From the NCBI GenBank assembly GCA_021735445.1, contig JAIPHA010000010.1, positions 1 to 44,788 of the forward strand: DNA of 44,788 nucleotides, written 5' to 3'. The stretch is from Candidatus Omnitrophota bacterium (lineage in GTDB: Bacteria > Omnitrophota > Gorgyraeia > Duberdicusellales > 4484-171). The notes under the pieces were generated by a model, which did not search any database, was not told the origin of the DNA, and saw nothing but the letters and a program-made list of their open reading frames with translations. The position numbers were made by a program, and so were the translations under genes. Shown here in pieces: positions 494 through 33,408 of the stretch (the stretch's first letter is position 1; each line of letters starts with the position of its first letter).

Positions 494-522
494 TTGACAT
501 TATTTTTTTTCTGTGTTATCTT
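494..522 (+). promoter_or_regulatory. Sigma70-type promoter for glnA (TTGACA-N17-TATCTT)
   Basis: TTGACA 494-499, 17-nt spacer, TATCTT 517-522. Confidence 0.7.
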
Positions 523-526
523 CTAT

Positions 527-556
527 TTAACAGTGATGTTAATAGGCAAAGTTGCC
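527..556 (+). promoter_or_regulatory. ANTAR-type two-hairpin antiterminator in glnA leader
   Basis: HP1 TTAAC-AGTGAT-GTTAA (527-542) and HP2 GGC-AAAGTT-GCC (545-556); both hexaloops have A1 and G4. Confidence 0.75.
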
Positions 557-608
557 CTTGGTAGATGTGCTAATTAAATAGCTCGCTTGCTGAGGGTTTT
601 TTTTATTT
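554..608 (+). terminator. Intrinsic terminator/attenuator in glnA leader, overlapping HP2
   Basis: GCCCTTGG...CTGAGGG followed by TTTTTTTTATTTT; 5' arm shares GCC with HP2 3' arm. Confidence 0.7.
567..587 (+). repeat. 21-nt inverted repeat arm A (glnA terminator apex)
   Basis: gtgctaattaaatagctcgct, exact reverse complement of 2874-2894. Confidence 0.9.
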
Positions 609-8046: not shown

Positions 8047-8075
8047 TTGACAGGAAAAATCTTATGTGGTATCTT
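8047..8075 (+). promoter_or_regulatory. Sigma70-type promoter for gltB (TTGACA-N17-TATCTT)
   Basis: TTGACA 8047-8052, 17-nt spacer, TATCTT 8070-8075; identical hexamers and spacing to the glnA promoter. Confidence 0.75.
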
Positions 8076-8080
8076 CAGAT

Positions 8081-8116
8081 GAACAAAGAAGTTCTTATTT
8101 TTAGACAGGGAAGTCT
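8081..8116 (+). promoter_or_regulatory. ANTAR-type two-hairpin antiterminator in gltB leader
   Basis: HP1 GAAC-AAAGAA-GTTC (8081-8094), HP2 AGAC-AGGGAA-GTCT (8103-8116); both hexaloops A1, G4. Confidence 0.8.
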
Positions 8117-8144
8117 TCTAAAAGGTGTTAGGAGGCTTTTTTTT
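8112..8144 (+). terminator. Intrinsic terminator/attenuator in gltB leader
   Basis: AGTCTTCTAA-AAGGTG-TTAGGAGGCT, 10 bp with wobbles, then T-tract; 5' arm overlaps HP2 3' arm. Confidence 0.88.
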
Positions 8145-8157
8145 GTATTAAAGCTAG

Positions 8158-8182
8158 GCGCCCAAAAAAGGGCGCTTTTTTT
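8158..8182 (+). terminator. Second, GC-rich intrinsic terminator upstream of gltB
   Basis: GCGCCC-AAAAAA-GGGCGC then TTTTTTT. Confidence 0.85.
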
Positions 8183-8215
8183 ATCTAAAAAATAAAAAAG
8201 TGATAAAATAAGTGT

Positions 8216-12815: not shown

Positions 12816-12856
12816 AAATATGGGGTTTGTGGAAATTGGGGGGAAGTGGGGTTAAT

Positions 12857-14302
12857 ATGAAGAAAGATAGAAAAGCTTTTTTAAAGACGCAAAGAAAAAA
12901 TATTCCCTATCGTCCTGTTTGTGAAAGGGTCGCTGATTTCAAAGAAGTGGCTATTTTGCCCTCAAACCAACATTCAAAAGAGCAAGCCTATCGCTGTATG
13001 GAGTGTGGAACTCCTTTTTGTCATTGGGCTTGCCCTCTTGGTAACTATATTCCCGAATGGAATGATGCACTTGCTTTGGGCCGTTGGGAAGATGCTTCGG
13101 GTTATCTTTTTGCTACCAACAATTTTCCGGAAATAACTGGTCGATTGTGCCCGGCTCTTTGTGAGCATTCTTGTGTTTTGGGAATTAATGATGATCCAGT
13201 TGCAATTAAGGAGAATGAACTAGCGATTGCGGAAAAAGGATTGAGAGAGAAATATTTAAAATCAAGAATTCCAAAAAAAAGAACCGGTAAAAAAATAGCT
13301 ATTATTGGCTCAGGCCCAGCTGGCCTAGCAGCCGCAGATCAATTAAATCAAGCTGGTCACAATATAACGGTTTTTGAAAAGGATGATGCTGCCGGCGGGC
13401 TTTTGCGTTATGGAATACCTGATTTTAAATTAGAAAAATTAATTATTGAAAGAAGAGTAGAGATGATGAAAAAAGAAGGGATAGAGTTTGTTTTTAATAA
13501 ATGTATTGAGAAAACAACCGAAATCAGAAAGCTTAAAAAACAGTTTGATGCAATAGTTTTAGCAATCGGTTCAAGTGTGCCCAGAGATCTTAAATTGCCC
13601 GGAAGAAATTTAAAAGGTATTCATTTTGCCATGGACTATCTTATCTGCGCTAATAAAAAAGTTAACAAGAAGGATGTCGGCAGCAATCAAGAAATCAACG
13701 CTAAAGGGAAAAAAGTATTAGTTATCGGAGGCGGAGACACTGGAGCCGATTGTGTAGGGGTAGCTAATCGTCAAGGAGCTAGTTGTGTAACTCAAATTGA
13801 GTTATTGCCGAAACCGCCTAAATGTAGGGCTGAATCTGATCCGTGGCCAAAATACCCGTTACTTTTAAAGACTTCTACTTCCCACCAAGAAGGCGGTCAG
13901 CGTCTTTGGTCCATTTTGACTAAGGAGTTTAAAGGCAGAGGCGGGAAAGTAGATAAGATTTTATGTAAAAAGATTGAAATTAATTCAGACAAAAAAGGAT
14001 GTTCTTTGATCAAAGAGATACCTAATTCTGAATTTGAAATTGAAGCTGATCTAATAATTATTGCCGTCGGCTTCCTTCATCCTAAGTTTTCGGGTCTAAT
14101 TGAAGGCCTAGGTTTAAAACTTGACGATAGAAGCAATATTGAAACTGATTCTAGTTATATGACTTCGGAAAAAGCTGTTTTTTCAGCTGGAGATTGCCGC
14201 CGCGGCCAGTCTTTAATTGTTTGGGCTATAGCGGAAGGCCGCCGTGCCGCCTATTGTATAGATTCTTACCTAATGGGTAAAAGTTGCCTGCCTAGAATGT
14301 AA
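12857..14302 (+). CDS. gltD: Glutamate synthase small subunit
   Basis: [31 protein letters not shown], Cys clusters, Rossmann [13 protein letters not shown] and GGGDTGADC; internal ATG 12857 preferred over ORF-track GTG/TTG start 12827. Confidence 0.96.
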
Positions 14303-33311: not shown

Positions 33312-33339
33312 TTGACCAGGCTACTATTTTTGCTATACT
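33312..33339 (+). promoter_or_regulatory. Promoter candidate for pyrG
   Basis: TTGACC 33312-33317, N16, TATACT 33334-33339. Confidence 0.6.
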
Positions 33340-33358
33340 AATTGCAGATATTAAATAT

Positions 33359-33372
33359 GGACAAAGGCGTCC
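33359..33372 (+). promoter_or_regulatory. ANTAR-HP2-like hairpin in pyrG leader
   Basis: GGAC-AAAGGC-GTCC with A1/G4 hexaloop overlapping the terminator 5' arm; no convincing HP1. Confidence 0.4.
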
Positions 33373-33408
33373 TTTCTTTTTTTTAAGAAAGGGCGCCTTT
33401 TCTTTTTT
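33363..33408 (+). terminator. Leader terminator/attenuator upstream of pyrG
   Basis: AAAGGCGTCCTTTCTT / AAGAAAGGGCGCCTTT (16 bp, one wobble) followed by T-rich tract, between promoter and ATG. Confidence 0.88.

Follow-up and report, generated by a model that had tools for sequence, protein, structure and literature searches.

A candidate ANTAR-type transcription attenuator in the glnA leader of an uncultured Omnitrophota bacterium

The leader of the glutamine synthetase gene glnA in a Candidatus Omnitrophota genome very probably functions as an ANTAR-type transcription attenuator, in an arrangement that would place nitrogen genes under the control of one GAF-ANTAR protein while a promoter closer to glnA would maintain basal expression. 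This reading is built on the observed sequence elements, on the specificity and recurrence of the motif that they form, and on the conservation of both the promoter geometry and the residues expected to contact RNA. The window, by which we mean the entire 44.8 kb stretch of DNA that was analysed, derives from a genome of 1.17 Mb (84% complete) in which we found one ANTAR gene, namely the one after glnA.

Only 11 nt separate the glnA stop codon from the start of the GAF-ANTAR gene, which is followed by a porin-like gene, two ammonium transporter genes (amt) and the gene for PII. The cluster then continues with a class-I amidotransferase gene, a Fis-type regulator gene, gltB and a gltD-like ORF (12827-14302) that is gltD as judged from its translation. 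Among named sequences, those closest to the ANTAR protein come from Candidatus Omnitrophota genomes.

Architecture of the glnA leader

The dual-hairpin mechanism of the antiterminator EutV, including its requirement for A1 and G4 in the hexaloops, is known from experiments (PMC8934654 and PMC3369931). The glnA region contains the following features.

494-522, + strand: distal glnA promoter TTGACA-N17-TATCTT (-35 TTGACA at 494-499, spacer of 17, -10 TATCTT at 517-522), predicted start A529
529-540, + strand: P1 hexaloop hairpin AAC-AGTGAT-GTT with A1 and G4; the DNA stem extends to 527-542
545-556, + strand: P2 hexaloop hairpin GGC-AAAGTT-GCC with A1 and G4
554-604, + strand: intrinsic terminator that uses the 3' arm of P2 as its own 5' arm and closes with T8 (597-604)
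697-724, + strand: predicted glnA-proximal promoter TTGATT(TAA)...TACAAT, downstream of the attenuator terminator
769-2103, + strand: glnA, glutamine synthetase (Pfam PF00120/PF03951)
2115-2816, + strand: GAF-ANTAR antiterminator protein gene (Pfam GAF and ANTAR)

A first-pass annotation of this DNA had described a promoter, two hairpins (P1 and P2 here), a terminator with its T8 run and an ANTAR gene 11 nt after glnA, and each of these is present exactly where it had been placed. In the DNA, the P1 stem is formed by TTAAC (527-531) and GTTAA (538-542) around the loop AGTGAT (532-537), and P2 is formed by GGC (545-547) and GCC (554-556) around AAAGTT (548-553). P2 and the terminator are mutually exclusive, since bases 554-556 are common to both. 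RNAfold predicts P1 plus the terminator for nucleotides 527-606 (-22.8 kcal/mol, z -2.6).

The distal -10 element is preceded by TGTGT (a TG before the -10), and its end lies 6 nt from the AAC core of P1. If transcription starts at A529 as expected, then the RNA would lack nucleotides 527 and 528, and with them the two outermost P1 pairs, and the transcribed stem is probably AAC/GTT, with three pairs like those of relatives. The P1 stem has 3-5 pairs and the P2 stem has 3, and the linker between them measures 4 nt from the three-pair core or 2 nt from the five-pair stem; linkers in relatives span 3-10 nt, and the working range of the Enterococcus faecalis eut linker is 5-12 nt, with 3 and 14 nt impaired. 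With just three A-U-rich pairs, P1 is not predicted to hold together by itself, and at the related site at 2838 (see below) P1 stays open in the RNAfold prediction. The ANTAR protein would therefore need to provide the stability that such a weak P1 lacks.

Comparison with G004, a genome of the same genus, reveals that all 29 nt of the distal promoter are identical and that the letters of P1 and P2 are the same, whereas the surrounding leader differs. The P1-P2 linker shows one difference, conservation does not extend to the outermost P1 pair, and four pairs of the terminator stem differ, three of which still pair when the alignment is read by eye. Elsewhere in the leader, the segment at 633-661 (ACAAAGCAGT-aactt-ACCAAAGCCGGT plus T5) resembles a further dual hexaloop and is largely kept in G004. 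We dropped it as a second glnA candidate because folding gave no overlapping terminator.

Specificity, recurrence and the regulator

A scan of both window strands for the full architecture, defined as two A1/G4 hexaloops, a short linker and a terminator overlapping P2, returned three sites, compared to a mean of 0.15 in 20 shuffles. All three reside on the + strand upstream of nitrogen-assimilation genes: before glnA (532), amt/PII (2841) and gltB (8085). A promoter alone or a terminator alone is no commoner than in shuffles, and thus it is the combination that stands out. The same scan of 80 loci around related ANTAR genes yielded 20 gene-strand sites, compared to 1 on the opposite strand and 0.2 in shuffles. 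Furthermore, when loop letters 1 and 4 were left free in these loci, such that C-G closing pairs and hexaloops were assumed and the ANTAR letters were not, A1/G4 was present in both loops at 17 of 29 terminator-linked dual hexaloops and at 0 of 4 on the opposite strand, and every other same-letter combination gave zero.

A stricter pattern, in which the stems are AAC/GTT and GRC/GYC, has three matches genome-wide, all of them the window sites (reversed control, 0), 14 matches in 38 family genomes (reversed control, 0) and 19 matches in 98 genomes (control, 5). The P1/P2 sites were chosen for pairing, and a MAFFT alignment of them misplaced the P1 3' arm. The general pattern ACANNGNNGT...CANNGNNG was set aside as unspecific in the genome (7 matches versus 10 in the reversed control), and an Rfam search of the window at the gathering score gave no match. 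Among the 76 genomes with ANTAR, 14 have the stricter pattern, as do 2 of the 22 without ANTAR; this is no strong tracking, in a comparison that has little power because most of the genomes carry ANTAR. No attenuator precedes most of the glnA genes examined in the family.

Genes downstream of the 19 stricter-pattern sites include glnA (four sites), gltB (three), a type III glutamine synthetase gene (one) and porin/amt (one). At seven other sites the ORF downstream is related to one that matches sigma-70 region 2, and five of these sites directly follow an ANTAR gene; one more follows an ANTAR gene and precedes an unclassified ORF. The sites in loci L084 and L098 appear to be chance occurrences or to have another use. 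We observed the sigma-70 region 2 ORF (one member tested) directly 3' of the attenuator in L086 (1681-2232), and ORFs of this type occupy the same position in L087, L088, L089, L090, L093 and L096; the window has none at that place. The L098 dual hexaloop (1501-1537), whose second loop AAGGAG is a Shine-Dalgarno sequence, lies immediately before a carB-like ORF and could be translational or a chance occurrence.

The 19 sites were picked without regard to promoters, and 15 of them have a promoter ending 5-8 nt before P1 (mostly 5 or 6), an arrangement found at 0.7-1% of background positions. Given the usual start spacing, transcription would begin at the first A of AAC (A529 at glnA), so that P1 would be located at the 5' end of the RNA. 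This supports the proposal of the first-pass annotation that P1 occupies this extreme position, and the feature recurs across these sites.

The ANTAR domain of the regulator can be aligned with EutV (6wsh/6ww6) along 54 residues (6wsh, E 1e-9). Nine of the 11 EutV residues that contact RNA are identical (R142, K143, K147, K149, E160, Y164, R168, M172 and R175), among them Met172, which is essential, and the three that hold G4, and two are changed (N173 to D and R177 to P); the contacts are those listed in PMC8934654, allowing for a two-residue offset between chain and paper numbering. Taken together, the specificity of the motif, its recurrence at nitrogen genes, its conservation in G004 and these contact residues strongly support the attenuator reading that had been advanced earlier.

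Further attenuators and terminators in the window

The additional sites uncovered at amt and gltB, a lone-hexaloop terminator and the glnA-proximal promoter at 697-724 all go beyond the first-pass annotation.

2838-2912, + strand: second candidate dual-hexaloop attenuator, AAC-AAAGTA-GTT, GGC-AAAGAA-GCC and terminator
2925-2980, + strand: tandem terminator with a lone A1/G4 hexaloop, GGC-AAAGAA-GCC (z -5.1)
8047-8075, + strand: predicted gltB promoter TTGACA-N17-TATCTT, matching the distal glnA promoter in -35, spacer length and -10
8081-8143, + strand: candidate gltB attenuator, GAAC-AAAGAA-GTTC, AGAC-AGGGAA-GTCT and overlapping terminator

The attenuator at 2838-2912 precedes the porin-like, amt, amt and PII genes, and the fold of 2814-2916 has a z of -6.3. 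It has no obvious promoter of its own at the usual distance before P1; polymerases probably arrive there by reading through from the ANTAR gene, or from an unrecognised promoter. The terminator at 2925-2980 is without a P1, and there is no room for one. Lone-hexaloop units also come after the first terminator in several relatives, and P1-less hexaloop-terminators right after a T-run carry A1/G4 in 15 of 25 cases on the gene strand and in 0 of 3 on the opposite strand. Such tandem terminators may serve as a second, stricter checkpoint. We also noted that the terminators at 554-603 and 2858-2907 are 78% complementary over 50 nt and that their inner parts are mutually inverse, as though by template switching or recombination.

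At gltB, P1 starts 6 nt past the promoter, as it does at glnA. This leader includes a second terminator (8157-8182, GGCGCCC-AAAAAA-GGGCGC plus T7) without an A1/G4 loop, which weighs against our preferred explanation in that an antiterminated gltB transcript would still encounter it. After this terminator, TGATAAAAT lies 6 nt before the gltB ATG, and the region (8157-8215) has no Shine-Dalgarno sequence; a separate promoter and a leaderless gltB mRNA are possible. In the leader of pyrG, which codes for CTP synthase (33312-33405), TTGACC-N16-TATACT is followed by a lone A1/G4 hexaloop, GGAC-AAAGGC-GTCC, that overlaps a strong terminator (z -6.7) and has no P1. This leader is possibly a fourth ANTAR target.

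Proposed control and relation to known systems

The ANTAR model predicts start sites, termination, protein binding, a signal and a direction of control. RNA initiated near A529 would carry P1 at its extreme 5' end, and when active regulator is absent the terminator at 554-604 would form and transcription would stop near 600. An active GAF-ANTAR protein would bind the hexaloops of P1 and P2 and keep P2 closed, and because P2 includes the terminator 5' arm, RNA polymerase would continue into glnA and the ANTAR gene. The gene content and the precedent of NitR (discussed below) suggest that nitrogen limitation is the signal. By means of the sites before amt/PII and gltBD, the same protein would control ammonium uptake together with the GS/GOGAT enzymes.

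The first-pass annotation had also envisioned a positive feedback loop, wherein relief of the attenuator raises the level of the regulator. This is plausible and yet incomplete, because the promoter at 697-724 is located downstream of the terminator and transcription of glnA and the ANTAR gene from it would pass no attenuator. The element TTGATTTAA...TAaaAT occurs with 0-1 mismatches in six genera (L101, L102, L105, L106, L108 and L119) and with 2 mismatches in two more loci; for background, 2 of 525 overlapping windows reach 1 mismatch, probably including the site itself. If this promoter independently supplies basal GlnA and ANTAR protein, the loop would be partial, acting as a boost rather than as an all-or-none switch.

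One could also take the glnA element for a plain terminator flanked 5' by an A-rich stretch, serving an upstream transcript or insulating glnA, with its hexaloops present by chance. A-tracts are common 5' of terminators, and promoter-like and terminator-like sites taken singly are equally common in shuffled sequence. This explanation nevertheless seems highly improbable to us given the excess of terminator-overlapping dual A1/G4 hexaloops relative to shuffles (3 versus 0.15), their strand and letter specificity, and the fixed distance between the promoter and P1. We consider it just as improbable that ANTAR binding represses expression in the manner of those actinobacterial ANTAR RNAs that conceal the ribosome-binding site. 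Translational repression has been described for mycobacterial ANTAR RNAs (PMC8164766), and the relative at L098 has its P2 over a Shine-Dalgarno sequence beside a start codon; the window motif, however, is separated from the glnA start codon by ~210 nt and has one arm in common with a terminator.

A different weighting, which is compatible with the ANTAR attenuator model, is that the attenuator is functional but minor and that the proximal promoter accounts for most glnA and ANTAR synthesis, to which the attenuated promoter merely adds. Retention of this promoter in at least six genera, including the attenuator-less L105, L106 and L119, gives this view some appeal. We nonetheless find it rather unlikely, as G004 retains the distal promoter in full and this promoter has the -35 closer to consensus. 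Returning to the attenuator itself, we tentatively entertain a broader proposal in which Omnitrophota use promoter-fused ANTAR attenuation, with P1 at +1, along with single-A1/G4-hexaloop tandem terminators that are acted on after readthrough. Past the first attenuator, the lone hexaloop would be the target of regulator that the transcript already carries, and these tandem units would then put the single-hexaloop binding model to a natural test.

These findings would add Omnitrophota, an uncultured phylum, to the bacteria in which ammonium assimilation is under ANTAR control; for this phylum we found no report of ANTAR nitrogen control in open-access papers. They would also pair a GAF-ANTAR protein with specific RNA targets; according to Ramesh et al. 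2012 (PMC3369931), none of the ANTAR proteins with a GAF sensor had been characterised. The fixed promoter-to-P1 spacing and the lone-hexaloop terminators are relevant to the question of whether antitermination requires two hexaloops or only one.

The closest experimental counterpart is EutV acting on eutP in Enterococcus faecalis, which likewise involves two A1/G4 hexaloops, a short linker and a P2 over the terminator (PMC8934654; PMC3369931), and with which our regulator shares nine RNA-contact residues. In contrast to EutV, which has a phosphorylated REC domain and serves ethanolamine utilization, the protein here has a GAF sensor and is associated with nitrogen assimilation; P1 would lie at about +1, while the P1 loop of eutP begins at +29. 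NitR of Clostridium saccharobutylicum, an ANTAR-family protein from another phylum, is described in PMC6316151 (its refs 44 and 45) as inducing GS/GOGAT genes by antitermination on nitrogen limitation, and the likeness concerns the regulator and its targets over the GS/GOGAT cycle only. ANTAR sites have also been predicted before genes for glutamine and glutamate synthase, PII and ammonium transporters (Ramesh et al., PMC3369931), and the regulons of Desulfotomaculum acetoxidans and others resemble ours in having several sites over such genes; the passages of that paper considered here treat neither Omnitrophota nor promoter-to-P1 spacing. In light of this published nitrogen control and of NitR, the glnA attenuator would represent a further example of a known switch type, with variations in layout.
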